DNA of 50,585 nt from Planctomycetia bacterium (GTDB lineage: Bacteria; Planctomycetota; Planctomycetia; Pirellulales; Thermoguttaceae). The DNA is taken from NCBI GenBank assembly GCA_030527185.1, contig JAUNBF010000023.1, positions 1 through 50,585 on the forward strand, given 5' to 3'. Position numbers and translations under genes: made by a program. Within the stretch, counting starts at the first letter, position 1. Each line of letters starts with the position of its first letter. The notes under the pieces are model-generated. The model did not search any database and was not told where the DNA came from. It worked only from the letters and a program-made list of their open reading frames with translations. Below, piece after piece: positions 273-27,372 of this stretch.

Positions 273-1322
273 TTATTTTCCCGGGGCGATAAAAGCGGTC
301 TGTTTTTCCGTCTGTTGACGGTACAATTTGGGGGAAAGGCCATACTCGGATCGGAAGGTGGTGGCAAAATATTCTGCCGAGCCAAAGCCACATTCCTGAG
401 CGATCTGGCCGATTGTCCAGGCGGACTGTTCCAGCAGTTCTTTGGCTGCTTCCAGACGTATTTTTCGCAGGAATTCCGCGGGGGACTGGTTGGTATGAAG
501 TTTGCAGTAGGTGGTAAACTGGGTGGTGCCAATCCCGCAGGCGGCGGCCATGGTACGGACTGTCCAGGGATGTCGCATGGCATTTTGGTCTTCCTGGAGA
601 CTTTTCAGGAACAGTTCCGTGGCACGGGAGGATGAGGAGAGGTTTTCATCCAATTCAACAACCTCTTTCTGAAGGAGTTCCAGGAGATTGAGGAGTAACT
701 CATTGATGCGCACGGCCAGACGGGAAATCCGTTTGTCTTCCGATTCGGTTTCGACCGCCTCGGCAATTTTGAGGAAACTTTGTCGAACGGCACGATCCGC
801 CTGAAGGACGGTCATCTCGTTCCACCGCAGCAGATATGTCAACGTCTGCAAATCTTCCGGTGTCAAGACCAGCCAGGAAGGCCATTTCCAGACCTGATTG
901 GGATAGTGGACGCCGACATCGAGGATAATCCAGTGGAGCCGTCCGACTTCGAGGTTGGGGGAACCGTAGCGGTGCATTTGCCAGGGGCGGGTGAGGGTCA
1001 ATTGGCCGGAATCGACCCAGTAGGGGGGCTGGTGATCGACGGCAAAGAACATTTTTCCGGTTTCCTGGAACTCGATTTCAAGTCCTTCGTGTCGGTGCCA
1101 GCCAAGTCCCCAGGTTTGCGGATTTTTGGCGTCCCAGTAACCGACGCTTCGCAGACCGGGAAGGGCCTCTTCGGGAAGTGGCTCTCCGGGATAGCAGCCG
1201 CGAGCGAGGGCTTTCAACTCAATTTCACCACGTTTGGCCGCTTCTGCCAGAGGTCCGCAGGGGCCTTGACAGGCGAGTGGTTCACGAATACGGATGTGGG
1301 TCGAGGTCAAAAGCATAGACAT
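273..1322 (-). CDS. AraC-family transcriptional regulator
   Basis: The protein (349 aa from the ATG at 1322) has an N-terminal cupin-like sensing half (HRHEGLEIEF, then a DSGQLTLTRPWQMH stretch) and a C-terminal AraC double helix-turn-helix over roughly residues 250-340. The second helix region reads IGQIAQECGFGSAEYFATTF followed by GLSPKLYRQ, the family signature. A TTG 15 bases upstream could extend it, but the ATG at 1322 has a GGA at a usable distance. It is divergent from the ceramidase-like gene cluster and separated from it by about 265 bp. AraC proteins in this position usually activate the adjacent catabolic operon in response to its substrate, so that role is inferred here. The ligand cannot be read from the sequence. 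Confidence 0.9.
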   Translation of the reverse strand: MSMLLTSTHIRIREPLACQGPCGPLAEAAKRGEIELKALARGCYPGEPLPEEALPGLRSVGYWDAKNPQTWGLGWHRHEGLEIEFQETGKMFFAVDHQPPYWVDSGQLTLTRPWQMHRYGSPNLEVGRLHWIILDVGVHYPNQVWKWPSWLVLTPEDLQTLTYLLRWNEMTVLQADRAVRQSFLKIAEAVETESEDKRISRLAVRINELLLNLLELLQKEVVELDENLSSSSRATELFLKSLQEDQNAMRHPWTVRTMAAACGIGTTQFTTYCKLHTNQSPAEFLRKIRLEAAKELLEQSAWTIGQIAQECGFGSAEYFATTFRSEYGLSPKLYRQQTEKQTAFIAPGK

Positions 1323-1463
1323 GATAATTCCAGGCAAAAAGGTTCCAGGGGACGTAAAAAATACGATTAACGAGGGGGAATTATCCCAAAAATTACAAAG
1401 GAAAAGTTCTTTTTTCCATCCATCTTCAATATACTTTACTTTTTCTTAAAAAACAACCCCCGA

Positions 1464-1505
1464 AACCTTCGATTTTATTCACCGTAGAAAATCGAAGGTT
1501 TTTTT
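1464..1505 (+). terminator. Hairpin with T-tract just upstream of the operon promoter
   Basis: A 13-bp inverted repeat (AACCTTCGATTTT ... AAAATCGAAGGTT) is followed directly by a run of T on the plus strand, the form of a rho-independent terminator. It ends three bases before the -35 box of the ceramidase cluster promoter. No plus-strand gene precedes it, so it may insulate the promoter from upstream transcription or be a binding site for the divergent AraC protein. Confidence 0.55.
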
Positions 1506-1507
1506 CC

Positions 1508-1536
1508 TTGCAATTAGGTGGGAGGTGGTTTATACT
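1508..1536 (+). promoter_or_regulatory. Sigma-70-type promoter of the ceramidase-like cluster
   Basis: TTGCAA at 1508-1513 and TATACT at 1531-1536 are separated by 17 bases. Transcription would begin near 1543, which rules out the upstream in-frame start at 1508 and supports the GTG at 1589. The box lies between the AraC gene and the cluster, as expected for a regulated promoter. Confidence 0.65.
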
Positions 1537-1588
1537 GAAAGCATGGATGGAAAAAAGAGAGAGGATGGAAAAAAGAAAAGGAGTGAAC

Positions 1589-3073
1589 GTGAAACGAAAA
1601 TTTGGGAAGGTGATAACGTGGTTCTGGGCGATTTTCGGGATGGTTTCGGCAAGTGCGGGAGGTGATTTTCAGGTCGGTGTCACTTCCGTGGAGATAACGC
1701 CGCCGGGAGAAGTGGCTCTCTGGGGACAGTTTCATCTGCGGGTTTCCAAAACGCCGGAAACGCCTTTGACCGCGAATATTGCGGCTTTGCAGGCAGGGGA
1801 GACGAAAGTGACGCTGGTTTCGCTCGATTTGCTCCAACTCTCGGATGAACTTGTGCAGGCGGTTCGTGAGGCGGTGGGAAAAAAGGACGCGGGGATTCCT
1901 CAGGATTCGATTGTGATGGCGGCGACGCATACGCACACAGCGCCGACGTTGACGACAGGACGTAGTATGGAGCAATCCGAGTCGAAAGAAAAAGCTCCCC
2001 TTCCCGGCATGGCAGGAAATGAGAATTTGCTCACTGTAGAAGAAACAATCTCCTTTCTGGCCGACCGAATCAGCGACGGAATCGTGGCGGCATGGAAAAA
2101 TTTGAAGCCGGGCAAAATGACGTATGGTCTGGATCGAAACAGCATTGGTTTCGGGCGGCGGGTGGTCTATGCGAATGGTTCGGCAGCCATGTACGGAGTG
2201 ACGAATCGGGAAGATTTTCGGAATTTGGAGGGGATGGACGATGACGATGTGGGGACGATTTTCTTTCTGGATACGGCAGATAATCTTTTGGCCATTCTGG
2301 TGAATGTGGCCTGTCCGTCGCAGGTGGTGGAAGGGCGTCATGCGATCAACGCGGATTACTGGCGTGTCGTGCGGGAAAAATTGCAGGCTCGGTACGGTCA
2401 ATCGGTCGTCATTTTGGGCACCTGTTCGGCGGCAGGGGATATTTCGCCACGTCCGTTGGTGCAGAAAAAAGCGAACGAGCGAATGCGGCAGTTGCGGGGA
2501 GTGGACGAGATGGCGGAGATTGCCCGTCGGATTGATCTTTCGGTGTCGCAGACGTGGGACGCGGTGCAAAAAGCAGCCGATTCGCAGCCGGTTTTGAAAC
2601 ATCAGAAGTTGCGTGTGGAGCTTCCGTTGCTGAACTTTACCGAAGCGCAGTATCAGGAAATCAAAAAAATGTACGATCATTACTGTCGGCTCGCGGCAGA
2701 TGAAAAGACCGCCGGGCAGGCGTTCATGGGAAAGGCATGGTGTGGTTTTGCCCTGAAACGTTACGAACTTTTGCAGAAAAATCCCGACGCGGCATGGGGC
2801 GTGGAGGTTCACGTCGTGCGAATTGGCGACACGGTTCTTTGCACCAATCCGTTTGAGCTTTTCACCGAATACGGCATTCGGATGAAGGCTCGTTCGGCGG
2901 CGACGCAGACATTTGTGGTGCAATTGAGCGGTTTTGGGAGTTATCTTCCCACCGAGCGTGCATTGCAGGGAGGAGGCTATTCCGCCATTCCGCAGAGTTG
3001 CTTTTTCAGTCCGGCAGGTGGGCAGAAATTGGTGGACGAAACGGTGAAAGCGATTCAGGAAATGTTTCCGTAA
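1589..3073 (+). CDS. Secreted ceramidase-like amidohydrolase, paralog 1
   Basis: This 494-residue protein opens the cluster. The GTG start has a perfectly placed AAAGGAG (1577-1583) and is followed by a signal peptide ending near ASA-GG. It belongs to the neutral/alkaline ceramidase N-terminal domain family (PF04734 type): FQVGVTSVEITPP at the mature N-terminus, ATHTHTAP around residues 112-119 (two histidines expected to bind zinc) and AAGDISP near residue 286, matching the family GD-x-SP motif. It is the most divergent copy: the EGMEDHDVG block of its paralogs reads EGMDDDDVG, and it lacks their long C-terminal insert. Known members cleave the amide of ceramide, but many environmental relatives have no known substrate, so function is given only at family level. 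Confidence 0.85.
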   Translation: MKRKFGKVITWFWAIFGMVSASAGGDFQVGVTSVEITPPGEVALWGQFHLRVSKTPETPLTANIAALQAGETKVTLVSLDLLQLSDELVQAVREAVGKKDAGIPQDSIVMAATHTHTAPTLTTGRSMEQSESKEKAPLPGMAGNENLLTVEETISFLADRISDGIVAAWKNLKPGKMTYGLDRNSIGFGRRVVYANGSAAMYGVTNREDFRNLEGMDDDDVGTIFFLDTADNLLAILVNVACPSQVVEGRHAINADYWRVVREKLQARYGQSVVILGTCSAAGDISPRPLVQKKANERMRQLRGVDEMAEIARRIDLSVSQTWDAVQKAADSQPVLKHQKLRVELPLLNFTEAQYQEIKKMYDHYCRLAADEKTAGQAFMGKAWCGFALKRYELLQKNPDAAWGVEVHVVRIGDTVLCTNPFELFTEYGIRMKARSAATQTFVVQLSGFGSYLPTERALQGGGYSAIPQSCFFSPAGGQKLVDETVKAIQEMFP

Positions 3074-3110
3074 ATTTTTGTTTTCATTTTATATCACGAA
3101 AGGAAGAGAT

Positions 3111-4433
3111 ATGGTCAATCGACGAGAGTTTTTGAAAAGTACCGCGTTGGGCGTGGCTGCGAGTCCGTGGCTGGTTCCAGGGTCGGTTTTGGGAAAAGAT
3201 GGGAATTTGCCTGCCAGCGAACGGATTGTGATTGCGATACTGGGCATGGGAAATCGTGGTCGTCACTCCTTCCAGGCGATGAAGCCACTGCCGGATCATC
3301 AAGTGGTGGCGATTGCGGAAGCGCGGCGGGATCGTGGTGAGGATGCCTGCCGAATGGTGGACAATTTCTACAAGGAGCGGCTCGGCGCGGCAGAATACAA
3401 GGGGTGCCAATTGTACGGCGACTTCCGCGACATCCTCCTGCGGGACGACATCGACGCGGTGTGGGGCACGGTCTGCGACCACTGGCATGGCTGTCTTTAC
3501 AGTCGAATCATCGAGTCGGGGAAGGATGTTTACGGCGAAAAGCCTCTGACGCGCTGGATTGGACAGGGGGTGAAGGTCAAAAAACTGGTGCGTCAATACG
3601 GCACTGTCTTCCAGACCGGAACGCAGCAGCGAAGCGATCCGAAATTCCGGCTGGCGTGTAACCTGGCGCGGAACGGTTACCTCGGCAAGATTACGGAGGT
3701 GCAGGTGGCGGCACCGGGCGGAACGGCGATTGAAAGCGTGCCGTCGTGCGACCCGCCGGAAGGGTTCGACTGGGATATGTGGAGTGGGCCAGCCCCGTTG
3801 CACCCGTTCGACCCGCGTCGTGTGGAGTGGTTGGGGCTGTACATGATTGCCGACTACTGTGCCGGATTCATCACCAACTGGGGCGTTCACCATCTCGACA
3901 TTGCCGGCTGGGGCGTCCCGGAAATCTTTGAAAAACCGTTCGACATCGAAGGAAAAGGGGTTTTGCCGACGCACGGTATGGCGGACACGTGGATTTCGTG
4001 GCAGATGAAAATGACGTATGACAGTGGTCTGATCATGCACTTTGTCAACTCCGGCAATCCGTACAAACAGGGTTGTCGTTTTATCGGCGACGAAGGGTGG
4101 GTTCATGTCAATCGTGGCGGCATTGAGGCGAGCGACCCGGCACTTTTAACCGTCCAGTTCAAGGATTCCGACCACCTTCTCCACGCCAGTCCTGCCTGGG
4201 GCGATTCCTACACGGCACACACGGCCGACTTCTTCCGCAGTATGCGAACGCGGCAAGACCCCATTTCTCCCGTCGAGCAAGGGCATTACGCCACGACATT
4301 GGGGAACGTTTCGGACATTTGTCTGCGTTTGGGGCGGAAATTGCGTTGGGATCCGCAGGAGGATGTGTTTGTAAACGACGCGGAAGCGAACGCCATGCGA
4401 ACACGAGCGGAACGCAGCCCCTGGACGATGTAA
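3111..4433 (+). CDS. Secreted Gfo/Idh/MocA-family oxidoreductase
   Basis: The protein (440 aa) starts at the ATG at 3111, preceded by AAAGGAAG. It carries a twin-arginine leader (NRREFLKSTALGVAASPW), so it is probably exported folded with its cofactor. A Rossmann motif (ILGMGNRGR, residues 43-51) and the family EKP motif (GEKPLTR, residues 142-148) are present. The C-terminal half has the WGVHHLDIAGWG block typical of secreted planctomycete members. The family uses NAD(P)(H) to oxidise or reduce sugars and cyclitols. Its place 37 bp after paralog 1 suggests it acts on the same substrate or on a product of the amidohydrolases. Confidence 0.9.
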   Translation: MVNRREFLKSTALGVAASPWLVPGSVLGKDGNLPASERIVIAILGMGNRGRHSFQAMKPLPDHQVVAIAEARRDRGEDACRMVDNFYKERLGAAEYKGCQLYGDFRDILLRDDIDAVWGTVCDHWHGCLYSRIIESGKDVYGEKPLTRWIGQGVKVKKLVRQYGTVFQTGTQQRSDPKFRLACNLARNGYLGKITEVQVAAPGGTAIESVPSCDPPEGFDWDMWSGPAPLHPFDPRRVEWLGLYMIADYCAGFITNWGVHHLDIAGWGVPEIFEKPFDIEGKGVLPTHGMADTWISWQMKMTYDSGLIMHFVNSGNPYKQGCRFIGDEGWVHVNRGGIEASDPALLTVQFKDSDHLLHASPAWGDSYTAHTADFFRSMRTRQDPISPVEQGHYATTLGNVSDICLRLGRKLRWDPQEDVFVNDAEANAMRTRAERSPWTM

Positions 4434-4452
4434 TTGATAATTGATAATTGAT
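4432..4452. repeat. Three tandem AATTGAT heptamers
   Basis: AATTGAT occurs three times head to tail directly at the stop codon of the oxidoreductase gene and just before the 160-bp repeat. A related AT-rich triplet of ATTAATG-like units follows the next gene at about 6576-6596. Confidence 0.7.
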
Positions 4453-4455
4453 AAA

Positions 4456-4618
4456 AGCCGCGTAGCGGCGATCCAAAAATCTTTGGAAGGAGAGGTCTGG
4501 AGAGGATAACTCTTTCTATAGAAAGGTTTCCTCTCCACGACGGTGGAAGTCTTGACGGGAAAGCGGCTATCGGCTTGCCGCAAGCCGCGCTACACCTGGT
4601 ACAAAAGACTTTTTCAAA
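4456..4618 (+). repeat. Structured ~160-bp interspersed repeat, copy 1
   Basis: This intergenic element is nearly identical to 18433-18593, with differences concentrated at the ends. It holds three hairpins: GCCGC-gta-GCGGC at the left edge; a long stem built from GGAGAGGA, AAC and CTTTCTA pairing with TAGAAAG, GTT and TCCTCTCC; and CGGCTTG-ccg-CAAGCCG near the right end, followed by CTTTTT. It could be a MITE-like or REP-like element or a mobile terminator. It contains no gene. Confidence 0.8.
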
Positions 4619-4660
4619 GAGTGTTCAAATTACCAAACCTTTATATTTACGAGAAGAATC

Positions 4661-6574
4661 ATGCGATATATCCAAATTTTAGTGACATTATTTTTCCTCA
4701 CCTCCGTCCTCACCGCCAACGACTGGGCGACGACGGGCAAAGGGGGGAGTGCGGGAAATCTGACGACAGAAGAAATTCAACAAGCGTGGGCGGAAATGCC
4801 ACGGTGGAATGCGGGGACAGATGCGAAGGCTTTGTTTGCGATGGACTGGATCGTCATTCGCGCCACGAGCGATCCGGCAACCCGGCAGGCCACGGCAGGG
4901 CGACTGGCGGAACTGCTGAAATCACCGGAGACGACGGCCAGTGCCAAAAAATTCATCCTTGCGAAGCTGTACCAGATCGGCACGGAATCGGAAGTCGCGG
5001 CGGTGGTTCCATTTTTGAACAACCCTGAAACGGTGGACGACGCACGGCTCTTTCTGGAACGCATCGGCACGGCAGAAGCACGGCAGGGTCTGCGGGAAGC
5101 GGCTGGAAAACTGGAAGGTCGGGCACTCATTGGCGTGATGAATTCGCTTTCGCTCCTGGAAGACGCGGATTTTCTGGAGACGCTCTCTGGTTACACCACA
5201 TCGGCAGACAAAGCGGTGGCACTGGCAGCGTGGCGGGCGTTGGGGAACTACGGCAGTGACGCGGCAGGACGGCTTTTCCTCCGATTTTTGCAGGCCGAGA
5301 AGGGAAAGAACGTTCCGTTGGAATCCGGGGCGATTCGCTGCGCGATTTTACTGAAAGAGCGTGGAAATGCGTATTTGGCGGAAGCGATTCTGGATCAGAT
5401 GACATTCTCGTATCGCGGTGAAGCGGCACGTCAGGCAGGTTGGCAGGCTCGTTGGGACGCGATGAGTGAGGCGGATCAGAAGAAACTGGCTCAGGAGTGG
5501 AAGAATTCGCCCGAAACTGCCAAACGGTGGGTGGCTTATCAGGTGCTGATGAAACAGGATTTTGGAAGATCGCAGGAAGGGAAAGGTTTTCCCGAATGGC
5601 TGAAGTCGCTGGAGTCGGACAACGTGCAGGCCGAGAAAGAAGCGGTGAGCTTTTTCCTCACGCAGCCGAAAGACGCGGTTGGCGGTTTCCTCTTGCAGGA
5701 GCTTCAGGGACAGAAAATTCCGTCGAAGAAAATCGTCGATTTGCTGGCACGGCTGAAATATTACAACGCGATTGACACGTTGGTGAACCTGGCGCGGAAG
5801 GGTGAGCCGGAAATTTACGAAGTGGCGATTTCCGGGCTGCGTGGGATTTGCGACGCGGACGAGCCGGATTTGGAACGGGTGTTGAAGTTGTATCTCGACG
5901 TGCAGGACGTGAAGCAGAAAGACCTCATCAGCCGAACGATTGCGGCCATTGCGGAAAAGAACCCGGAAAAAGCGCGTCGGGCGGACATTTTGCTTGGCTT
6001 TATTGAAAAAGATGGTCGAAAAGCGGAAGTCGCGTTCCAGGCGGAGGTACTCCCCATGCTGGGACGTTTGGGAACGGCGAAAGTCTTTGAAAAAGTGGAA
6101 GTTGCGCGGAAGTCGGAGCAGGAAGCTCTCCAAAACGCGGCGTGGCAGGCGTTGTGCAATTGGCCCAACGCGGAACATGCCGATTTGCTCTGGGAACGGG
6201 CGGCGGCAGGCGATTCAGCAGCTCTGCGAGCGTACATTCGCGTGATCACGATTCCGAGTGAACGGTCTGCCGAGGCGGTTTTGGCCGACTTGCAAAAAGC
6301 GTTTGCCAAGGCGGATTCCGTGGAAAATCGGCAACTGGCACTTGCCCGCGCGTCTGCGGTACGGTGCAAGGAGACCGTGGCGTGGGCGGCGACGTTCCTG
6401 GATGACGAGGCACTTTCGCAAGTCGCGTGCCAAACGATTGTGGAACTGGCTCACCACCGTTTCCTGCGACAGCCAAACAAGGCCTTTTTTGAACCCATTC
6501 TGGAAAAGGTGAAGGCGGTTTCCAAAGATGCGGAGATTCAACAGCGAGCGGAAAAAGCCCGACTGGGAATGTGA
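4661..6574 (+). CDS. Secreted HEAT-repeat protein
   Basis: The protein (637 aa) has a signal peptide of about 19 residues (MRYIQILVTLFFLTSVLTAN) and then consists almost wholly of alpha-helical HEAT-like repeats, with recurring units such as LAAWRALGNYGSDAAGRLFL and repeated LL/LARL helix pairs. No catalytic domain is visible. HEAT solenoids are protein-binding scaffolds, so it may organise exported enzymes of the cluster. The specific partner is unknown. It lies on the same strand between the oxidoreductase and the second amidohydrolase, separated from the former by the 160-bp repeat. Confidence 0.75.
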   Translation: MRYIQILVTLFFLTSVLTANDWATTGKGGSAGNLTTEEIQQAWAEMPRWNAGTDAKALFAMDWIVIRATSDPATRQATAGRLAELLKSPETTASAKKFILAKLYQIGTESEVAAVVPFLNNPETVDDARLFLERIGTAEARQGLREAAGKLEGRALIGVMNSLSLLEDADFLETLSGYTTSADKAVALAAWRALGNYGSDAAGRLFLRFLQAEKGKNVPLESGAIRCAILLKERGNAYLAEAILDQMTFSYRGEAARQAGWQARWDAMSEADQKKLAQEWKNSPETAKRWVAYQVLMKQDFGRSQEGKGFPEWLKSLESDNVQAEKEAVSFFLTQPKDAVGGFLLQELQGQKIPSKKIVDLLARLKYYNAIDTLVNLARKGEPEIYEVAISGLRGICDADEPDLERVLKLYLDVQDVKQKDLISRTIAAIAEKNPEKARRADILLGFIEKDGRKAEVAFQAEVLPMLGRLGTAKVFEKVEVARKSEQEALQNAAWQALCNWPNAEHADLLWERAAAGDSAALRAYIRVITIPSERSAEAVLADLQKAFAKADSVENRQLALARASAVRCKETVAWAATFLDDEALSQVACQTIVELAHHRFLRQPNKAFFEPILEKVKAVSKDAEIQQRAEKARLGM

Positions 6575-6677
6575 TTAATGGATTAATGATTAATGCGGTC
6601 ACGAATGCTGAAACCCCTCTCTCTGGGAGGGGTACGGCGTTCGTTGGGGCGGTTTGAAGAATTTCGAGGAGCGAAAC

Positions 6678-8123
6678 ATGTATCGAGGAATGGTGATTTT
6701 AGGAAGTCTGTTCTGGATGTTGGGTCCGGGATGTTGGGCGGCGGAGACGAAAGCTCCTGGATTTTACGTGGGAGCGGCTTCGTGCGACATTACGCCAGAC
6801 GGTCCGGTTTCGCTTGCGGGGCAGTTTTACACGCGGATTTCCGAGGGTGTGGCAACTCCGATCATGGCCAATGTTCTGGCGTTGGAATCGATCGCGGCAG
6901 ACGGCAAACAGGATCATGCCATCTGGGTCAGTCTGGATATTGGCGGCATTCCACTCATTTTCAACACCACGATTAGGGAAGCGTTTCGGGAAGCGTTTCC
7001 GCAACTGGATGTCAACAAGTTGATTCTGTCCGCAACGCATACGCACAGTGCCCCTCTTCGCGGTGAGGAGTTCAGCGAATTTTGTGCGTCGCGGGTGATT
7101 CCAGCGATAAAGCAAGCGTGGGAGAGCCGTTCGGCAGGAAAATATGCGTATGGGCTGGGTCACGCAGTCGTGGCGTACAACCGACGGGCGATTTATGCCA
7201 ATGGCACGGCGGTGATGTATGGCAACACAAACAGTCCGAATTTCCGCGCGATGGAAGGGATGGAAGACCACGATGTCGGGACGCTCTTTTTCTGGAACGC
7301 GGAAGACAAACTGATTGCGATGATGGTGAATGTGGCCTGTCCTGCGCAGGAGATGGAGCATTCGCTGAAAATCGATGCCGATTTCTGGGGGCCGGTTCGG
7401 ACGATGTTGCAAAAGGAGCATGGCGAGGATTTGGTCGTGCTGGGCGTGTGCGGAGCGGCCGGGGATATGTCACCGCATATCCGGTATCGGAAGGCTGCGG
7501 AAGAACGGATGCGGGCGTTGCGGAAATTGAGCCGGACGGAGGAACTGGCACGTCGGATCGTCCGTGCGGTGGAAGAGGTTTGGGAAGTGGCGGAAGCGAC
7601 GCGGGAAGTCCCCTCCACGGTACGGAGTCTGTATCAGGAAATCGAGCTTCCCGAACGGAAAATTACGGAACAGGATTACAAAGAGGCCGTCGCCAACGCG
7701 GAACGTGAGGAAAAGGCTGCGGCAGAGTCGAAAGATGGTGACAAGTCGGGTCATTCCGGGAAAGCAAGGTGGCATCGGCGGATTGCGCAGCGTTGGGAGA
7801 AGCTGGCGGAAAATCCGAATCCGATGTATCCGACGTGTGTTCATGTGGTGCGGATCGGGGACACGGTTTTGTGTACGAATCAGTTTGAACTCTACACCGA
7901 TTTTGGCGTTCAGATGAAATCCCGTTCGCCAGCCAAGCAGACGTTTGTCGTGCAGTTGTGCGACGGGCTGATTGGCGGTGGGACGTATCTTCCCTCCGAG
8001 CGAGCCATGCAAGGGGGCGGTTACGGAGCGGTCATTCAGTCGAACATGGTCGGTGCGGAAGGGGGGCAGATTTTGGTGGAAAAGACGTTGGAAATGGTGA
8101 ATCAGCTTTTTCCAAGACCATGA
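6678..8123 (+). CDS. Secreted ceramidase-like amidohydrolase, paralog 2
   Basis: The protein (481 aa) starts at the ATG at 6678, preceded by GAGGA. A signal peptide ends at CWAAET and the mature chain begins FYVGAASCDITPDGPVSLAG. The zinc-site motif ATHTHSAP lies near residues 118-125 and AAGDMSPHIRY near residue 265. After that comes a charged helical insert (residues about 310-370), then THVVRIGDTVLCTNQFELYTD-like and YLPSERAMQGGGYGA blocks shared by all later copies. It lacks the loop of about 18 residues that follows ATHTHSAP in paralogs 4-6. The product starts the tightly spaced part of the cluster, 42 bp before the fusion gene. Confidence 0.85.
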   Translation: MYRGMVILGSLFWMLGPGCWAAETKAPGFYVGAASCDITPDGPVSLAGQFYTRISEGVATPIMANVLALESIAADGKQDHAIWVSLDIGGIPLIFNTTIREAFREAFPQLDVNKLILSATHTHSAPLRGEEFSEFCASRVIPAIKQAWESRSAGKYAYGLGHAVVAYNRRAIYANGTAVMYGNTNSPNFRAMEGMEDHDVGTLFFWNAEDKLIAMMVNVACPAQEMEHSLKIDADFWGPVRTMLQKEHGEDLVVLGVCGAAGDMSPHIRYRKAAEERMRALRKLSRTEELARRIVRAVEEVWEVAEATREVPSTVRSLYQEIELPERKITEQDYKEAVANAEREEKAAAESKDGDKSGHSGKARWHRRIAQRWEKLAENPNPMYPTCVHVVRIGDTVLCTNQFELYTDFGVQMKSRSPAKQTFVVQLCDGLIGGGTYLPSERAMQGGGYGAVIQSNMVGAEGGQILVEKTLEMVNQLFPRP

Positions 8124-8165
8124 TTTTGAAAAGAGGTTGAAACCATCTAATTTTAAGGAGAAAAA

Positions 8166-10466
8166 ATGTATCGAGGAATGATGATTTTGCTGAGCCTGAT
8201 TTTGCTTTTGGGGCAACCGACCTCTGCGGCAGAACGAAACGCGGAAGCGAAGGCGGCTTTGGAGAAATTGAACTGGAAAATAACGGTTGCGGCGTACACC
8301 TACCGAAATTTCACGTTTTGGGAAACGGTGGAGAAGGTCGCGGATTTGGGCGTTGATTCGATTTATGGCTTCAACTTCCAGAAAATCGGCGGCGGACTGG
8401 AAGGGAATCTGGACCCGGCGGCGATGTCGGACGAAACGCTGGCGAAAGTGAAGGCCAAACTGGACGCGGCGGGATTGGATTTGGTGGCGTTGTACTACGG
8501 TGGCTTCCCGAACGATGAAACGGCGTGCCGGAAGATTTTCGAGCGGAGTAAACGGTTGGGAATCCGTTATTTTGTGAGCGAACCGCAACCCGAACAGTTG
8601 CCGATGTTGGACCGACTTGCCCAGGAGTACGGAATCATCGTGGGGCAGCATGGGCATGACAAGAAAAGCTCTCCCAACACATGGCATCCGGTGCTGGTTG
8701 CGAAAGAATGCGCGAAATACACACCTGCCATCGGTGCGTTCAACGACACGGGTCACTGGATTCGTTCGGAACTGGAGCCATCGGAAGGGGTGGCGATTTT
8801 GAAGGGTCGGACGGTCGGTTTCGACCTGCACGATTTGGATACGCACGGAAGGGACGTGCCGTTGGGAACGGGCGTTGGGAAGATTGCGGAGATGCTGGAA
8901 ACGCTGGCGGCAGTCAATCCGAATCCGGTGCTGATCGGGATTGAGTACAACAGCAACCCGGAAAATCCGACGCCGGATGTCGAGCAGTGCTTGGCGTTTC
9001 TGGAAAAGGAGGCCGTTCGGATTGCGTCGCAACCACTGAAAAAAGTTCCACCACGGAAGAAACCCGGATTTTACGTCGGAGCCGCGTCGTGCGACCTCAC
9101 GCCGGAGCGTCCGGTGTTTCTTTCCGGGCAGTTTCATACCCGAATTGCCAGTGAAGCGAGTACGCCCGTTATCGCCAATGTCGTGGTGATGGAATCGGTC
9201 GGTGAGGAGGGTTCGTCGGACTGCGTTTTTCTGTTGAGCATGGACACGTGCGTCATCCGTCCCGAATTTAATCAGGCATTTCGGAAAGCGTTTCGGGAGA
9301 CCTTTCCGCAATGGGACGTGAACAAGCTGATTTTAAGCGCGACGCACACGCATGCCGCCCCGCATATTGGCGGGGACGGATATTATCGCACAGATCAGAA
9401 AGAGGTGATGTCGTCAAGCGAGTACATCGCTTTTTGCATTCCCCGAATGCTTGCCGCGATAGAAAAAGCGTGGGGAAACCGTTCGGCAGGGAAATATGCG
9501 TACGGGCTGGACTTTGCGGTGGTGGCCTGCAATCGGCGGGCGGTTTACGCGGATGGAACGGCTGTCATGTACGGCAATACCAACGACCCGAATTTCCGGG
9601 CGATAGAGGGGATGGAAGACCACGATGTCGGAACGCTCTTTTTCTGGAACGCGGACGACCAGTTGATTGCGATGTTGGTGAATGTGGCCTGTCCTGCGCA
9701 GGTGCATGGGAGTGTGCGGAAAATCGACGCGGATTTCTGGGCACCCGTGCGGACGATGTTGCAAAAGAAGTACGGCCAGGATTTGGTCGTGCTGGGGCTG
9801 TGCGGCGCGGCAGGGGATATGGCACCTCATATCCGATACCGTCAGACGGCGGAAGTGCGTATGCAGGAAATGCGGAAACTGGGACGAGCGGAGGAACTGG
9901 CACGACGGATTGTCGATGCGGTTGATCAGACGTGGGAAGTGGTCGAAAGAACACGCGAAAAACCGTCGATTTTGAAAAATCTCTACGCGGAAGTCCAGCT
10001 TCCCGAACGGAAAATTACGGAAGACGATTACCGAAAAGCCATTTCGGAAGCGGAGCGGCTGGAGAAGGTGGCGGCTCAGTCGAAGGAAGGCGGAGCTTAC
10101 ACGCAGGCAAAATGGCACCGGAATATCGCCCATCGTTGGGAAAAGTTGAAGGAAAATCCGAATCCGATGTACCCGACGTGTATTCATGTGGTGCGGATCG
10201 GGGATGCGGTTTTGTGTACGAATCAGTTTGAACTCTACGCCGATTTTGGTGTCCAGATGAAAGCCCGTTCGGCAGCGAAACAGATGTTTGTGGTGCAATT
10301 GTGCGACGGTCTGGTGGGAGGAGGAACGTATCTTCCGTCGAAACGAGCCATGCAGGGAGGCGGCTACGGAGCGGTCATTCAGTCGAACATGGTCGGTGCG
10401 GAAGGGGGGCAGGTTTTGGTGGAGAAAACGTTGGAATTGGTAAATCAACTCTTTCCGAAAAAGTAG
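8166..10466 (+). CDS. Fusion: secreted sugar-isomerase-like TIM barrel plus ceramidase-like domain
   Basis: The protein has 766 residues. A signal peptide (to about residue 22) is followed at about 30-290 by a xylose-isomerase-like TIM barrel of the sugar phosphate isomerase/epimerase superfamily, with candidate metal ligands in FVSEPQPEQ, AFNDTGHW, GFDLHDLD and IGIEYNSN. After a linker rich in K, P and R (KKVPPRKKPG) comes a complete ceramidase-like domain starting FYVGAASCDLTPERPVFLSG. The domain keeps ATHTHAAP, but the GD-x-SP serine is alanine (GDMAP, A553, codon at 9822). The start has AAGGAG nine bases upstream. Fusion of the two activities on one exported chain implies sequential action on one substrate. 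The Ser-to-Ala change may mean the hydrolase half is altered or only binds. Confidence 0.85.
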   Translation: MYRGMMILLSLILLLGQPTSAAERNAEAKAALEKLNWKITVAAYTYRNFTFWETVEKVADLGVDSIYGFNFQKIGGGLEGNLDPAAMSDETLAKVKAKLDAAGLDLVALYYGGFPNDETACRKIFERSKRLGIRYFVSEPQPEQLPMLDRLAQEYGIIVGQHGHDKKSSPNTWHPVLVAKECAKYTPAIGAFNDTGHWIRSELEPSEGVAILKGRTVGFDLHDLDTHGRDVPLGTGVGKIAEMLETLAAVNPNPVLIGIEYNSNPENPTPDVEQCLAFLEKEAVRIASQPLKKVPPRKKPGFYVGAASCDLTPERPVFLSGQFHTRIASEASTPVIANVVVMESVGEEGSSDCVFLLSMDTCVIRPEFNQAFRKAFRETFPQWDVNKLILSATHTHAAPHIGGDGYYRTDQKEVMSSSEYIAFCIPRMLAAIEKAWGNRSAGKYAYGLDFAVVACNRRAVYADGTAVMYGNTNDPNFRAIEGMEDHDVGTLFFWNADDQLIAMLVNVACPAQVHGSVRKIDADFWAPVRTMLQKKYGQDLVVLGLCGAAGDMAPHIRYRQTAEVRMQEMRKLGRAEELARRIVDAVDQTWEVVERTREKPSILKNLYAEVQLPERKITEDDYRKAISEAERLEKVAAQSKEGGAYTQAKWHRNIAHRWEKLKENPNPMYPTCIHVVRIGDAVLCTNQFELYADFGVQMKARSAAKQMFVVQLCDGLVGGGTYLPSKRAMQGGGYGAVIQSNMVGAEGGQVLVEKTLELVNQLFPKK

Positions 10467-10486
10467 TTTGTAACGAAAGGAAAACG

Positions 10487-11992
10487 ATGAAACGAAGCCT
10501 CTTTTTTATGACTGGGCTGTTAGGATTCCTCTTTTTGCCGATGGCGGTAGGGGAGGAAACGAGTCCGGCAACCCAAGCTCCCGGATTTTACGTCGGAGCC
10601 GCGTCGTGCGACCTCACGCCGAAACCTCCGGTCGTTTTGAGTGGGCATTTGGCGACGCTGATTGCGGATAAGGTGGCGACACCGTTGACAGCCAATGTGA
10701 TTGCGATGGAATCGATTGCGGAAGATGGTACGAACGATTACGCTATTTTCGTGACGATGGACACCTGTTCCATACGGATCGATTTTTACAAAGCGTTTTG
10801 CCAGGCATTTGAAAAAGCCTGTCCGCAATGGGATGTTCGCAAAGTCATTCTCAACGCGACGCACACGCACAATGCCCCGGATATTCGTGCCGACGGGTAT
10901 TATTCGATCGGGCGGGACGATGTGATGAAATCCAGCGTGTACACCCAATTTTGCCTGGATCGGATGATTCCGGCAATTCAGAAAGCGTGGGAGAGCCGAA
11001 CGCCTGGGAAATATGCCTACGGGCTGGATTTTGCGGTGGTGGCGTACAACCGACGGTCGGTTTTTGCGGATGGTCACGCGGAGATGTACGGGAAGACGAA
11101 CAACCCGAATTTCCGAGCGATCGAAGGGATGGAAGACCACGATGTCGGGACGCTCTTTTTCTGGAATGACCAGGACAAACTGATTGCGATGATGGTGAAT
11201 GTGGCTTGTCCGTCGCAGGAAAATGAGGGTCGTTTGGAGATGGATGCCGACTACTGGGCACCAACGCGAAAGATGTTGCAGAAAAAGTACGGGGAGGATT
11301 TGGTCGTGCTGGGACTGTGCGGTGCGGCAGGGGATATGTCGCCCCATACGCAGTACCGTCGCGGGGCGGAAGACCGGATGAGTTCGATGCGAAAACGGAC
11401 GCGGGTGGAAGAAATGGCACGGCGGATTGTCGGTGCGGTGGACGCGACGTGGGAGGTGGTGGCGGGAACGCGGGAAGTCCCTGCCGTCATGAAGAACCTG
11501 TACGCGGAAATCGAGCTTCCACAACGGAAAATTACGGAGCAGGAGTACAAAAGTGCCCTTGCGGAAGCTCTGCGACTGGAGAAGATTGTCGCCGACGCGA
11601 AGCCGGGCGAGCAGACGGGAGCGTTTTCACAAGCCAAGTGGTATCGTCGGGTGACGGACCGCTGGGACCAGCAGCAGGAGAATCCGAACCAGGTGTATCC
11701 GACGTGCATTCGCGTGGTGCGGATTGGAGATACCGTACTTTGCAGCAACCAGTTTGAACTCTTTACCGACTTCGGCGTTCAGATCAAAGCACGTTCCCCA
11801 GCCAGGCAGACGTTTATCGTGCAGTTGAGCAACGGTCTGGTGGGAGCGGGAACGTATGTTCCGTCGAAACGTGCGGTGAAGGGAGGGGGCTACAGTGCCA
11901 TTCCTCAGTCGAACATGGTCGGGCCGGAAGGGGGGCAGGTTTTGGTGGAGAAAACGCTGGAAATGGCGAATCAGCTTTTTCCGAAGAAGTAG
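10487..11992 (+). CDS. Secreted ceramidase-like amidohydrolase, paralog 4
   Basis: The protein (501 aa) starts at the ATG at 10487 with GAAAGGAAAACG just upstream. The same leader precedes paralogs 5 and 6. A longer frame reaches back into the previous gene but has no ribosome-binding site. A signal peptide ends near VGEE, followed by FYVGAASCDLTPKPPVVLSG. The histidine motif is ATHTHNAP, and the GD-x-SP motif is AAGDMSPHTQY. The final block is less conserved than in its neighbours (YVPSKRAVKGGGYSAIPQS), resembling paralog 1 at that point. It begins 20 bp after the fusion gene, consistent with one transcript. Confidence 0.85.
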   Translation: MKRSLFFMTGLLGFLFLPMAVGEETSPATQAPGFYVGAASCDLTPKPPVVLSGHLATLIADKVATPLTANVIAMESIAEDGTNDYAIFVTMDTCSIRIDFYKAFCQAFEKACPQWDVRKVILNATHTHNAPDIRADGYYSIGRDDVMKSSVYTQFCLDRMIPAIQKAWESRTPGKYAYGLDFAVVAYNRRSVFADGHAEMYGKTNNPNFRAIEGMEDHDVGTLFFWNDQDKLIAMMVNVACPSQENEGRLEMDADYWAPTRKMLQKKYGEDLVVLGLCGAAGDMSPHTQYRRGAEDRMSSMRKRTRVEEMARRIVGAVDATWEVVAGTREVPAVMKNLYAEIELPQRKITEQEYKSALAEALRLEKIVADAKPGEQTGAFSQAKWYRRVTDRWDQQQENPNQVYPTCIRVVRIGDTVLCSNQFELFTDFGVQIKARSPARQTFIVQLSNGLVGAGTYVPSKRAVKGGGYSAIPQSNMVGPEGGQVLVEKTLEMANQLFPKK

Positions 11993-12067
11993 TGTTGTAA
12001 GCATTCTTCTCCCTCGGAGGGTCTACCACAGGCAGGTGAGGAATCCATTTTTGATGAAAGGAAAACG

Positions 12068-13558
12068 ATGAAACGAAGGATTCTGTTTTGGGTGGGAATG
12101 TTTTTCCTCCTCGTTTTGCCGGAAGTTGTCGCTGCGAAATCCCCTGGATTTTACGTTGGAGCCGCGTCGTGCGACATCACGCCGGATCGTCCAGCCACAC
12201 TTGCCGGACAATTTGCCACGCGGATTTCGCAAGGGGTGGCGACCCCTGTCACGGCCAATGTGGTGGCGATGGAATGGGTGGACGCGGAAGGAAAATCGGA
12301 CTACGTTATCTGGGTGAGTCTGGATGTGGCGGTGATTAGCCCGGATTTCAGCATCCCGATGCGGAAGGCTTTCCAGGAGAAATTTCCGCAGTTGGAGCCG
12401 AAAAAGTTGATTCTCTCGGCGACACATGCCCACAGTACGCCGAGCCTCACTTCCCGCGACAATTATCTCGTTCGTGATAAGGGAATTATGGCTTTGAAGC
12501 AATACGTTCCGTATGTCACCGAGCGAACCCTTCTTGCCATCGAGAAAGCGTGGGAAAGTCGAACGGCAGGAAAGTACGCTTACGGGATGGACTTTGCCGT
12601 GGTGGCGTACAACCGGCGGGCAATTTACGCGGATGGTCGAGCGGTGATGTACGGTAACACCAACGACCCGAATTTCCGGGCGATGGAGGGGATGGAAGAC
12701 CACGATATTGGCTGCATGTTTTTCTGGAACGCGGAAAACAAGCTGATTGCGGCAATCGTGAATGTGGCGTGTCCTGCGCAGGAAAACGAAGGCTCCATGA
12801 AAATCGACTCTGATTTTTGGCACCCGGTACGAACGACGTTGCAAAAGAAGCATGGCGAGGATTTGGTCGTGCTGGGACTTTGCGGCGCGGCGGGGGATAT
12901 GTCGCCACACATCCGGTATCGCCATGCCGCGGAAGAGCGAATGCGGGAACTGCGAAAACTGAGCCGGACGGAAGAACTGGCGCGGCGGATTGTTGCTGCG
13001 GTGGAGAATGTTTGGGAGGTGGTGGAGGAGAGACGCGAAGTTCCCTCGGTGATGAGACATTTGTATGAGGAAATGGAGCTTCCCGAACGGAAGATTACGG
13101 AAGCGGATTACCGACGTGCCGTATCGGAAGCGGAGCGTTTGGAGAAGGTGGCGGCCGAGTCGCAAGACGGCGGTGCGAGCAATGGCTCCTACTCCATGGC
13201 AAAATGGCATCGGCGGATTGCTGAGCGTTGGGAAAAACTCTCGACGAATCCGAATCCGACGTATTCGACGTGCGTTCACGTCGTGCGGATTGGCGACACG
13301 GTCTGGTGTACGAATTCGTTTGAACTCTACACCGATTTTGGCGTTCAGATGAAAGCTCGGTCGCCTGCGAAACAGACGTTTGTGGTGCAACTGTGCGACG
13401 GTCTGGCGGGCGGAGGAACCTATCTTCCGTCGGAACGGGCAATGCGGGGTGGCGGTTACGGGGCAATTATTCAGTCGAACATGGTGGGTGCCGAAGGGGG
13501 GCAGATTTTGGTGGAGAAGACGTTGGAACTGGCGAATCAGCTTTTTCCCAAAAAATAG
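12068..13558 (+). CDS. Secreted ceramidase-like amidohydrolase, paralog 5
   Basis: The protein (496 aa) has a signal peptide (MKRRILFWVGMFFLLVLPEV) and begins FYVGAASCDITPDRPATLAG. The histidine motif is changed to ATHAHSTP, keeping both histidines. AAGDMSPHIRYR is intact. It is closest to paralog 6: they share a recognisable signal peptide, the stretch GYNRR-like AVVAYNRRAIYADGRAVMYG and most of the C-terminal third. The 75-bp gap before it carries a small CCCTCGGAGGG-type inverted repeat at about 12011-12021. The GAAAGGAAAACG leader fixes the start. Confidence 0.85.
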   Translation: MKRRILFWVGMFFLLVLPEVVAAKSPGFYVGAASCDITPDRPATLAGQFATRISQGVATPVTANVVAMEWVDAEGKSDYVIWVSLDVAVISPDFSIPMRKAFQEKFPQLEPKKLILSATHAHSTPSLTSRDNYLVRDKGIMALKQYVPYVTERTLLAIEKAWESRTAGKYAYGMDFAVVAYNRRAIYADGRAVMYGNTNDPNFRAMEGMEDHDIGCMFFWNAENKLIAAIVNVACPAQENEGSMKIDSDFWHPVRTTLQKKHGEDLVVLGLCGAAGDMSPHIRYRHAAEERMRELRKLSRTEELARRIVAAVENVWEVVEERREVPSVMRHLYEEMELPERKITEADYRRAVSEAERLEKVAAESQDGGASNGSYSMAKWHRRIAERWEKLSTNPNPTYSTCVHVVRIGDTVWCTNSFELYTDFGVQMKARSPAKQTFVVQLCDGLAGGGTYLPSERAMRGGGYGAIIQSNMVGAEGGQILVEKTLELANQLFPKK

Positions 13559-13578
13559 TTTTTAATGAAAGGAAAACG

Positions 13579-15075
13579 ATGAAACGAAGTTTTTTATTTT
13601 GGGCAGGGATGTTTTTCATCCTCATTTTACCGGGGATAACTGCGGGCGAAGAGGCGAGAACACCGGGATTTTACGTAGGAGCCGCGAAATGCGACATTAC
13701 GCCGGATCGTCCGGTTCCGCTTGCCGGGCAATTCCACACACGGATTTCGCAGGGAATCGACAATCCCGTCATGGCGAACGTGGTGGCGATGGAATGGGTG
13801 GACGCGGAAGGCAAATCGGACTATGCCATTTGGGTGGGCATCGATACCGTTTCGATTCGGTACGAGTTCAACCAGACGATTCGCAAGGCATTTCGGGAGA
13901 AGTTTCCGCAGTTGGATGAAACCAAGCTGATCCTTTCGGCGACGCATACGCACAGTGCGCCGGGACTCATTGCGGACGATTATTACCGAATCAACCAGGA
14001 AGGGGTGATGTTGCCCAGTGAGTATATCCAGTTCATGGTCGGGAAGATGATTCCGGCGATGGAGCAGGCGTGGGAAGGGCGAACGGCAGGGAAATATGCC
14101 TACGGGATGGACTTTGCGGTCGTGGCGTACAACCGGCGGGCGATTTACGCGGATGGTCGGGCGGTGATGTACGGCAACACCAACGACCCGAACTTCCGAG
14201 CAATGGAGGGGATGGAAGACCACGATGTCGGTTGCATGTTTTTCTGGAACGCGGAGGACAAGCTGATTGCGATGATGGTAAACGTGGCGTGTCCGTCGCA
14301 GGAAAACGAAGGTTCCATGAGAATCGACGCGGATTTCTGGCACCCGGTGCGAACGATGTTGCAAAAGAAACATGGCGAGGATTTGGTGGTGCTGGGACTT
14401 TGCGGCGCGGCGGGAGATATGTCGCCACACATCCGGTACCGTGTCGCGGCGGAGGAACGAATGCGGGCACTGCGGAAACTCAGTCGCACGGAAGAGTTGG
14501 GACGCCGGATTGTCGGTGCGGTGGAAAGTACGTTGGAGGTGGTGGAAGGGACGCGGGAAACGCCGTCGGTGTTGAAGAGTCTCTATGCGGAAATCGACCT
14601 TCCCGAGCGGAAAATTACGGAGCAGGATTACCAACATGCCGTTTCGGAAGCGCAGCGATTGGAGAAAATTGCGGCTGAGGCAAAAGATGGTGGTGCTGGC
14701 GGACCTTACACGCAGGCCAAATGGCATCGGCGGATTGCGCATCGTTGGGACAAGTTGGCGGAGAATCCAAATCCGGTCTATCCGACGTGCATTCACGTGG
14801 TGCGGATTGGCGACACGGTCTGGTGTACGAATCAGTTTGAACTCTACACCGATTTTGGCGTTCAGATGAAAGCGCGGTCGGCGGCAAAACAGACGTTTGT
14901 CGTGCAGTTGAGCGACGGTCTGATCGGTGGTGGGACGTATCTTCCGTCCGAACGAGCCATGCGAGGGGGCGGTTATGGAGCCGTCATCCAGTCGAACATG
15001 GTGGGGGCGGAAGGTGGGCAAATTTTGGTGGAAAAGACGCTGGAACTGGTAAACCAGCTTTTTCCGAAAAAGTAA
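13579..15075 (+). CDS. Secreted ceramidase-like amidohydrolase, paralog 6
   Basis: The protein (498 aa) starts at the ATG at 13579 after the shared GAAAGGAAAACG leader. Its signal peptide ends near ITAGEE and is followed by FYVGAAKCDITPDRPVPLAG. It has ATHTHSAP, an adjacent tyrosine-rich loop (DDYYRINQEG), and AAGDMSPHIRYR. Its long runs of identity with paralog 5 at protein and DNA level indicate the most recent duplication in the array. It is followed by the sugar isomerase gene after 24 bp. Confidence 0.85.
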   Translation: MKRSFLFWAGMFFILILPGITAGEEARTPGFYVGAAKCDITPDRPVPLAGQFHTRISQGIDNPVMANVVAMEWVDAEGKSDYAIWVGIDTVSIRYEFNQTIRKAFREKFPQLDETKLILSATHTHSAPGLIADDYYRINQEGVMLPSEYIQFMVGKMIPAMEQAWEGRTAGKYAYGMDFAVVAYNRRAIYADGRAVMYGNTNDPNFRAMEGMEDHDVGCMFFWNAEDKLIAMMVNVACPSQENEGSMRIDADFWHPVRTMLQKKHGEDLVVLGLCGAAGDMSPHIRYRVAAEERMRALRKLSRTEELGRRIVGAVESTLEVVEGTRETPSVLKSLYAEIDLPERKITEQDYQHAVSEAQRLEKIAAEAKDGGAGGPYTQAKWHRRIAHRWDKLAENPNPVYPTCIHVVRIGDTVWCTNQFELYTDFGVQMKARSAAKQTFVVQLSDGLIGGGTYLPSERAMRGGGYGAVIQSNMVGAEGGQILVEKTLELVNQLFPKK

Positions 15076-15099
15076 CTTTTGAGAAAGAAAGGTAATTTC

Positions 15100-15924
15100 A
15101 TGGGCAAAATTGCGTTGGGAATGAATCTGGAAGCGACACGCCATCACGACAAACCGTTTTTGTGGGGTTTGGATCGCGCGGCGGAGATCGGTTATGAATA
15201 TGTGGAGCCGATGGTTCACTTCGGTCGGGAACTGATGTCGGAAGCGGGCTATTTCCATACCGTTTCGCTTTTTAACGATCCGTATGTCATGCGTCGGGAG
15301 TGCGAAAAACGGGGTTTGAAAATTTCCGGTTTGCAGGCACATGGCCCGCTGGGACGACCGGACTATCATGGCGAGTACCTGAAAATGGCGATCCGTTACG
15401 CGGCCGAGTGTGGCTCTCCGGTCGTCAATACGGACGAGGGAATCAAGGCACCGTGGACGACGAAACTGGAAGATATGGTGCTGATGCGTTATACCTTGCA
15501 GGAAGCGGCCTTCGTGGCGGAACCGCGTGGTATCAAGATTGGTCTGGAGTGCCATTCGCAGTATTCCAAAACGCAGGAAGGTTTGGACGAGATTTATTCG
15601 TTGGTGCAGTCGCCGTCGATTGGAATCAACCTCGATACGGGGAATGCGTATCTGTGTGGCGCGGACGTGTATGGTTGGCTGGAACATGTGTGCGATCGGC
15701 TGGTACACCTCCATGCGAAAGACATCTCCGTGGCGCATTCCGAAGCGGAGTTGGGGCAGGTCACGGGAACGCCGGTTGGGTGTGCCTGCGGTGACGGGAT
15801 TTTGGACTGGGAGCGGATTATCAAGATTTGCCGCAACTGTCCGAACGATTTGGTATTTTCGGTGGAGTGCGGTTCGATAGAGGAAGCCCAACGCAGTTTT
15901 GAACACCTGTCGCGGTATTTGTAA
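15100..15924 (+). CDS. Sugar phosphate isomerase/epimerase family protein (cytoplasmic type)
   Basis: The protein (274 aa) has no signal peptide. The ATG at 15100 follows AAAGAAAGG. The fold is the xylose-isomerase-like TIM barrel, with four conserved metal-site blocks in order: IGLECHSQY, IGINLDTGNAY, LVHLHAKDIS and FSVECGS. The family interconverts or dehydrates sugars and inosose-type cyclitols. It is the last gene before the terminator and likely handles the product taken into the cell. The N-terminal barrel of the fusion protein belongs to the same superfamily but is not closely similar. Confidence 0.88.
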   Translation: MGKIALGMNLEATRHHDKPFLWGLDRAAEIGYEYVEPMVHFGRELMSEAGYFHTVSLFNDPYVMRRECEKRGLKISGLQAHGPLGRPDYHGEYLKMAIRYAAECGSPVVNTDEGIKAPWTTKLEDMVLMRYTLQEAAFVAEPRGIKIGLECHSQYSKTQEGLDEIYSLVQSPSIGINLDTGNAYLCGADVYGWLEHVCDRLVHLHAKDISVAHSEAELGQVTGTPVGCACGDGILDWERIIKICRNCPNDLVFSVECGSIEEAQRSFEHLSRYL

Positions 15925-15932
15925 ACTTTTCA

Positions 15933-15978
15933 GCCGCAGAGCCACTTCAGGGATGAGGTGGCTTTCGGCACCCTTTTT
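15933..15978 (+). terminator. Terminator of the ceramidase-like cluster
   Basis: A two-part stem (GCCG and AGCCAC pairing with GTGGCT and CGGC, 12-base loop) is followed after a short spacer by TTTTT. It begins nine bases after the isomerase stop codon and ends 20 bases before the next start. Confidence 0.65.
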
Positions 15979-15997
15979 GAAAAACAGGAGAAGTATC

Positions 15998-18442: not shown

Positions 18443-18593
18443 CGGCGGACAAAAATCTTTGGAAGGAGAGGTCTGGAGAGGATAACTCTTTCTATAGAAA
18501 GGTTTCCTCTCCACGACGGTGGAAGTCTTGACGGGAGAGCGGCTATCGGCTTGCCGCAAGCCGCGCTGCGCCTGGGCGAGAGACTTTTTCAAA
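18433..18593 (+). repeat. Structured ~160-bp interspersed repeat, copy 2
   Basis: This is the second copy of the element at 4456-4618, in the same orientation and with the same three hairpins. Its left edge overlaps the PEP-CTERM gene and supplies its final codons and stop. The element therefore inserted, or the gene end was rearranged, at the stop codon. Confidence 0.8.
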
Positions 18594-18686
18594 AAGCATT
18601 GGAATTTCCAACCTGTCGAGACGATGTTTGTTCACGGCTCTTTCAGGAGAACACCTACTTATCCTCATGAATCAAGGAGCAAAACT

Positions 18687-27180: not shown

Positions 27181-27372
27181 TCATAATTGCCGCACTGTTT
27201 CCAACTCCATTACCTCGTGCGAAACGACGACGGAAATCGGTTTGACGGGGGTTTGGGGAAGATACGTTTTTCGTTGGAGAAACTCCTCACGCTTCCCCTT
27301 GTTCCAGTTCGCCACGGGACGAAAATAACCGACGACTCGGGAATAGACTTCTGTTTTTTCTCCGCATTTCAT
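27181..27372 (-). CDS. Detached glycyl-radical C-terminus of class III ribonucleotide reductase
   Basis: The protein (63 aa) begins MKCGEKTEVYSRVVGYFRPV and continues ANWNKGKREEFLQRKTY. In ordinary NrdD this segment follows a CP-x-C motif at the extreme C-terminus. The glycine of RVVGY (G15 here) carries the radical, and the WNxGKxxEFxxRK tail completes the domain. The 662-residue NrdD at 28079-30067 stops exactly where this segment should begin. The ATG overlaps the nrdG stop as ATGA, so it is co-translated within the operon. The last ~25 residues have no family counterpart. The enzyme probably works as a complex of the two chains. Confidence 0.8.
   Translation of the reverse strand: MKCGEKTEVYSRVVGYFRPVANWNKGKREEFLQRKTYLPQTPVKPISVVVSHEVMELETVRQL

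Follow-up and report, generated by a model that had tools for sequence, protein, structure and literature searches.

The window analyzed here is positions 1 to 50,585 of contig JAUNBF010000023.1 of a Planctomycetia bacterium (Pirellulales, Thermoguttaceae; assembly GCA_030527185.1). It carries nine plus-strand genes (about 1583-15924) in the order cer1, gfo, heat, cer2, a TIM1-cer3 fusion, cer4, cer5, cer6, and tim2. They encode six ceramidase-like domains, one Gfo/Idh/MocA dehydrogenase, one HEAT protein, and two xylose-isomerase-like barrels. The ceramidase-like domains belong to a neutral-ceramidase-fold subfamily that lacks one active-site histidine, and the dehydrogenase-HEAT pair lies beside ceramidase-like genes in 8 of 78 fetched loci. 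We tentatively propose that the cluster encodes a mostly exported sugar oxidation-elimination pathway with added ceramidase-fold hydrolases.

Organization of the gene cluster

The cluster is real: the genes that an earlier note on this DNA had listed were found, including a divergent AraC-type regulator. The features are as follows.

273..1337, minus strand: divergent AraC-type regulator (HTH_18, 71.3 bits)
1462..1502, plus strand: hairpin with an adjoining T run, located before cer1, a possible terminator or attenuator (z -3.0 for the stretch 1440-1520)
1583..3073, plus strand: cer1, ceramidase-like (21.2 bits to PF04734), placed by the tree in a separate deep lineage
3111..4433, plus strand: gfo, Gfo/Idh/MocA dehydrogenase by family match, with a twin-arginine start read by eye
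4661..6574, plus strand: heat, HEAT-repeat protein (HEAT_2, 30.2 bits; orthologs), with a hydrophobic start read by eye
6678..8123, plus strand: cer2, ceramidase-like
8166..10466, plus strand: fusion of the TIM1 barrel (about residues 30-290) to the cer3 ceramidase-like domain (about residues 298-766)
10487..11992, plus strand: cer4, ceramidase-like (leader at 10475)
12068..13558, plus strand: cer5, ceramidase-like (leader at 12056)
13579..15075, plus strand: cer6, ceramidase-like (leader at 13567)
15100..15924, plus strand: tim2, xylose-isomerase-like barrel (AP_endonuc_2, 85.5 bits), export signal absent by eye
15938..15965, plus strand: terminator-like hairpin after tim2

The start codon of cer1 is uncertain (candidates ATG at 1547, ATG at 1565, and GTG at 1583). 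Before cer4, cer5, and cer6 the leader GAAAGGAAAACG is identical, with identity extending over 23 bases, in agreement with the common leader that the earlier note had seen from the fourth paralog on. Its strong promoter was dropped, since the single plus-strand match scored 9 of 12 and shuffled sequences yielded more sites than the region did. Sec-like hydrophobic N termini are predicted on the heat, fusion, and cer proteins, all export signals having been judged by eye rather than with a signal-peptide program. An AraC relative (57% identity) lies upstream of a related cluster, at locus L018, on the opposite strand. At L018, a DUF1559-type relative also sits between the AraC gene and tim2.

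The ceramidase-like domains lack one active-site histidine

The cer proteins have the catalytic-domain fold of neutral ceramidase (2zws, 4wgk), and the C-terminal part of ceramidase is absent from them. Five score 20.1 to 29.2 bits against PF04734 (Ceramidase_alk), missing the Pfam cut-off of 32.1, and the scan listed no match for the TIM1-cer3 fusion, whose cer3 domain is 74% identical to cer6. Seven of the eight mapped ceramidase active-site residues are kept in cer6: human His194, His196, Arg257, and Ser354 correspond to H122, H124, R185, and S281, and Glu540, Tyr579, and Tyr591 to E420, Y453, and Y465. All seven are kept across the six domains of the window, except that Ser281 is replaced by Ala in cer3. 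The eighth, human His303, is Pro238 in all six. We take His194, Glu540, and His303 (human numbering) to be zinc ligands; the roles of His196, Arg257, Ser354, Tyr579, and Tyr591 in neutral ceramidase are described in PMC6952831.

Two residues past Pro238, Gln240 is invariant. The alignment used for these residues comprised 236 of 255 matches (those with more than 300 model positions covered). The His303 equivalent is absent in 97 of 110 relatives from 78 loci, and all 97 members of this subfamily have Gln240 and lack the ceramidase histidine. The cer domains belong to a subfamily of the neutral-ceramidase fold in which one active-site histidine has disappeared and a glutamine has become invariant. 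We did not file them as plain ceramidases, because the defining residue, the equivalent of His303, was looked for and is missing.

The fold and most of the catalytic residues favor acyl hydrolysis, with one active-site histidine replaced. The removal of N-acyl groups, which the earlier note had inferred for the pathway as a whole, is no more than a possibility, with hints only in a polysaccharide deacetylase found in 5 of the 78 loci and a GH20 gene found in a single one. The window also carries, some 6 kb past the end of the cluster, a gene for a PIG-L family N-deacetylase (21791-22630, plus strand; 70.2 bits), a possible link to N-acyl sugars.

Relatives are numerous. Of 7997 scored candidates, 1785 pass E 1e-3; planctomycetes, Bacteroidota, and Kiritimatiellota are among the groups represented in the fetched loci. 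The few names shown are hypothetical proteins or similar, and their Pfam match is ceramidase. A literature search, whose coverage left out most subscription journals, returned nothing relevant on planctomycete neutral ceramidases, paralogous ceramidases, or the PF04734 family.

Paralog history and domain fusions

A tree built from 79 chosen rows unites cer2 to cer6 with P0002, P0004, and P0006 in one clade (support 91/93); some supports inside this clade are weak. P0004 is itself a fusion, and the next branches, P0005 (the same as that of L010) and P0009 with P0010, are likewise barrel-ceramidase fusions, so the free-standing copies probably arose when a fusion gene was duplicated and the barrel was lost. 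The cer1 gene groups with one from L018, but the branches are long and the program warns about this grouping; cer1 appears to be an old, separate lineage. Only cer2 to cer6, whose DNA identities are 68.6 to 78.8%, cluster together, and a reading of all six as recent tandem copies was rejected.

Among the 120 relatives listed, nine are barrel-first fusions (one being that of the window), three are ceramidase-first, and P0011 consists of two ceramidase-like domains in tandem. The ceramidase-first proteins P0085, P0088, and P0098 branch together as a separate clade in the tree. The two domain orders imply at least two joinings, which argues for a joint action of the barrel and the ceramidase domain.

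The dehydrogenase and the barrels as possible enzymes of glycoside oxidation and elimination

The nearest curated family of gfo is the glycoside 3-dehydrogenase (NCBIfam BT_2158_fam, 97.1 bits). TIM1 has H162-x-H164, D194, H222, and E260, which in motif and spacing fit the sequence of the eliminase AtOGE, for which PMC10628242 gives His132, catalytic His134, Asp163, His189, and Glu233. For the model of the fusion, 3-epimerase folds are equally near; AtOGE is not among the 50 matches listed for it, which says nothing against the likeness. In tim2, E150, H152, D179, H205, and E256 are invariant in a six-row alignment. PMC10628242 also describes an operon with an oxidase, two sugar-isomerase-type barrels, and a Gfo reductase.

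Recurrence of the gene set

We analyzed 78 loci anchored on a ceramidase-like gene, drawn from the best 80 of 250. Because length-based calling of open reading frames (ORFs) sometimes favored antisense ORFs that overlap real genes, counts were taken from tblastn maps. The thresholds were 55% identity or more for gfo, measured against the copy of either the window or L033, and 33% or more for HEAT. Both genes lie beside ceramidase-like genes in eight loci (L010, L012, L016, L018, L021, L025, L033, and L036), which are spread over two main parts of the tree, and in the 78 loci neither occurs without the other. By a rough Poisson estimate, which assumes 5.5 Mb per genome and mixes two different thresholds, these at least eight loci compare with 0.013 expected. 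TIM1 is present in seven loci and tim2 in six. A barrel of any of four types occurs in 23 loci, a dehydrogenase (a gfo relative or a Bacteroidota DUF7133-HEAT-cytochrome c protein) in 28, and both in 17. Dehydrogenases thus accompany 17 of the 23 barrel loci versus 11 of the 55 others (p 1.4e-5, for loci that are related and of unequal lengths). One further locus reached through the HEAT search, L144, contains tim2, two cer genes, gfo, and heat.

A census of operon neighbors compared with Pfam 83 of 118 ORFs at 60 loci (126 less eight of more than 1000 residues); the 35 left out by hand were mostly short, with some of up to 673 residues and two SusD-like. The families included sulfatase (5), GH51-like (4), GH3 (3), SusD (3), polysaccharide deacetylase (3), and SASA esterase (3). 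Among the 25 of 107 families listed, none was a sphingolipid family. A separate ORF scan took in 56 of 79 ORFs. The recurring gene order, the fusions in both orders, and the mostly carbohydrate-related neighbors bear out the earlier view that the genes belong together.

In five Bacteroidota loci (L038, L045, L055, L059, and L076), ceramidase-like genes are accompanied by a third type of barrel, tim3, and by the DUF7133-HEAT-cytochrome c protein. The window's HEAT protein showed no similarity to that protein (E 0.16).

The gfo-HEAT pair and tim2 elsewhere

A HEAT profile matched 24 places outside the source genome in 392 genomes searched. All seven fetched loci contain a gfo relative, which adjoins the HEAT gene in six; in L148 it is on the opposite strand at a distance of about 3 kb. 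Conversely, four of six gfo-anchored loci have the HEAT gene (two of them, L155 and L156, had first come up in the HEAT search), the other two being short contigs. None of these 13 HEAT- or gfo-anchored loci has a ceramidase-like gene. Ten of their HEAT proteins were scanned: four carry ThuA and one carries 3keto-disac_hyd, a family treated as 3-ketoglycoside hydrolases, with BT2157 named, in PMC9007349. These fusions, to ThuA at either end or to the 3-keto-disaccharide hydrolase, lie beside Gfo/Idh/MocA genes (L152, L155, L156, L158, and L160). The HEAT proteins of L151 and L154 have a C-terminal tail of about 170 residues without a Pfam match, similar to one in L149 and resembling, by eye, a sugar-binding sandwich.

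ThuA is also a neighbor of tim2 relatives, at a distance of no more than about 1.5 kb in L130, L135, and L140 and of about 4 kb in L145. AraC relatives are found in L135, L140, and L145. Thus, gfo, HEAT, tim2, and the regulator type are tied to keto-sugar genes even without ceramidase-like genes. In the window, one PF06439 and two ThuA queries gave no tblastn match at E 1e-4. Among the 78 ceramidase-like loci, a PF06439 relative is present in L024, L028, and L074, and a ThuA relative in L026, within about 10 kb.

A possible oxidation-elimination pathway

Oxidation followed by elimination is better supported by the sugar enzymes than plain isomerization. As the most economical view, we favor, without holding it to be probable, a mostly exported pathway in which gfo would oxidize a glycoside at C3. 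Elimination of the leaving group would fall to TIM1, the barrel with an attached ceramidase-fold domain, and the freed keto-sugar would be handled by tim2, probably in the cytoplasm. The ceramidase-fold proteins would hydrolyze an acyl bond (amide or ester) of the same substrate with an altered metal site, and their duplication may have widened the substrate range. HEAT could be a scaffold that keeps dehydrogenase and cleaving enzyme close together, as suggested by relatives in which the HEAT chain itself carries a 3-keto-sugar enzyme.

Of this proposal, the analysis demonstrates the recurring gene order, the domain fusions, the folds, and the active-site residues kept or lost. The pathway is suggested by the recurrence of gfo and HEAT beside ceramidase-like genes (in the eight loci and L144), the fusions in both orders, the partnership of the pair with ThuA or 3keto-disac_hyd elsewhere, the proximity of gfo to glycoside 3-dehydrogenase and of TIM1 residues to AtOGE, and the operon described in PMC10628242; the acyl-hydrolysis step is suggested by the fold and residues of cer6.

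Several results weigh against it. The gfo score is far under the BT_2158_fam equivalog cut-off of 750, and the best Protein Data Bank matches of gfo, 8tdf and 8tdh (E ~1e-14), which presumably stem from work on redox glycan breakdown, are named there merely as dehydrogenases. An even search of the phylum found ceramidase-like matches in 30 of 362 genomes, the source genome included. Around 20 of its 35 matches (38-47% identity, five on contigs of less than 9 kb), gfo was found twice, a barrel once, and HEAT never, with a dehydrogenase or a barrel in 3 of the 20. The sugar-gene association therefore holds for only part of the family, and a general link to dehydrogenases and barrels was ruled out. 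A comparison set of 20 loci of histidine-type relatives, taken from a larger list (the residues of all 40 were not checked singly), gave gfo once and neither barrel nor HEAT. Of 14 loci with tim2 relatives (58-70% identity), one has a ceramidase-like gene close by and two have a gfo relative, which rules out tim2 as a marker of the cluster. The DUF7133-HEAT-cytochrome c protein was likewise discarded as a subfamily marker (2 of 20 ceramidase-like versus 7 of 20 histidine-type loci).

Two other explanations are unlikely. The ceramidase-fold domain might no longer be an acyl hydrolase and might itself cleave the bond in the keto-sugar route, replacing ThuA or the 3-keto-disaccharide hydrolase. 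One or the other of these is carried by 5 of the 10 HEAT proteins from ceramidase-free loci and matched nowhere in the window; the exchange of the ceramidase histidine for a Gln-marked site in 97 of 97 members and the barrel fusions in both orders point the same way. However, cer6 retains seven of eight mapped amidase residues, and most distant subfamily members have no keto-sugar neighbors. The histidine-less, Gln-marked subfamily could even be a secreted sugar-cleaving enzyme of 3-keto-sugar metabolism that in some bacteria is joined with its partner eliminase in a single chain, forming a two-step machine, an idea that we regard as improbable. Equally doubtful is that the ceramidase-like genes have a purpose separate from that of the dehydrogenase-HEAT-barrel genes and are merely adjacent to them: each set is found elsewhere without the other, but 8 of 78 loci from two main parts of the tree share the arrangement, and the fusions arose in two orders.

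Breakdown of (glyco)sphingolipids, in which the barrel would free ceramide from 3-keto-glucosylceramide and the ceramidase-fold proteins would cut it, is quite unlikely. It would account for the fold and for a barrel and a ceramidase domain on one chain, but the mapped histidine and the C-terminal part are missing, the scores are under the Pfam cut-off, and the operon neighbors are carbohydrate genes, with no sphingolipid family among those listed. Equally improbable is cyclitol catabolism, with gfo as inositol dehydrogenase, tim2 as inosose dehydratase, and the ceramidase-like proteins acting on acylated cyclitols, since the weak IolG (55.4 bits) and IolE (37 bits) matches are far under the equivalog cut-offs of 355 and 290 bits and no other inositol gene was seen in the scanned parts of the window.

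The residue signature and the gene setting argue that many relatives whose Pfam match is ceramidase are not ceramidases. Proteins read as such may often work on sugars, and the barrel fusions and the gfo-HEAT pair point to oxidized sugars. If the proposed oxidation-elimination pathway is correct, redox-based glycan breakdown, a field still yielding new enzymes, gains an acyl-cleaving or sugar-cleaving step.

Other features of the window

Just past the terminator-like hairpin, a long ORF (15899-18442, plus strand) without a Pfam match has a PEP-CTERM-like tail by eye. Three DUF1559 pilin-like proteins are encoded at 18519-19682 (plus), 19864-20865 (minus), and 34407-35306 (plus). A GH106-type rhamnosidase gene (35337-38876, plus; 98.2 bits) is followed on the opposite strand by a DUF6528 gene (38873-39898). 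A cobalamin riboswitch (30132-30344, minus; 80.4 bits) precedes an anaerobic ribonucleotide reductase gene (28079-30199, minus; NRDD, 575 bits), after which comes a radical SAM gene (27369-28082). Vitamin B12 would thus control an NRDD-type reductase, a type that is not known to need vitamin B12.

Comparison with known systems

The cer domains share with neutral ceramidase (2zws, 4wgk; PF04734) the catalytic-domain fold and seven of eight residues. They differ by Pro238 in place of His303, the Gln two residues on, the missing C-terminal part, the sub-cut-off Pfam scores, and the carbohydrate gene setting. With inositol catabolism (IolG, IolE), the cluster shares the superfamilies of gfo and tim2, but at scores far below those of equivalogs. 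The modules of ThuA or the 3-keto-disaccharide hydrolase (PF06439, DUF1080) have the same gfo-HEAT pair, with HEAT fused to ThuA in four cases and to PF06439 in one, whereas neither domain was matched in the window.

The Agrobacterium GlycDH-AtOGE-AtHYD-Gfo operon, for which PMC10628242 draws a comparison with the PUE puerarin and Bacillus smithii levoglucosan operons, likewise has a Gfo-family oxidoreductase together with two sugar-isomerase-type barrels, and TIM1 has residues that fit those of its eliminase in motif and spacing. The sequences are far apart, and no flavin GlycDH was seen in the nine-gene cluster. In contrast to that operon, the dehydrogenase and one barrel look exported in this cluster, and a HEAT protein and six ceramidase-fold domains are added.
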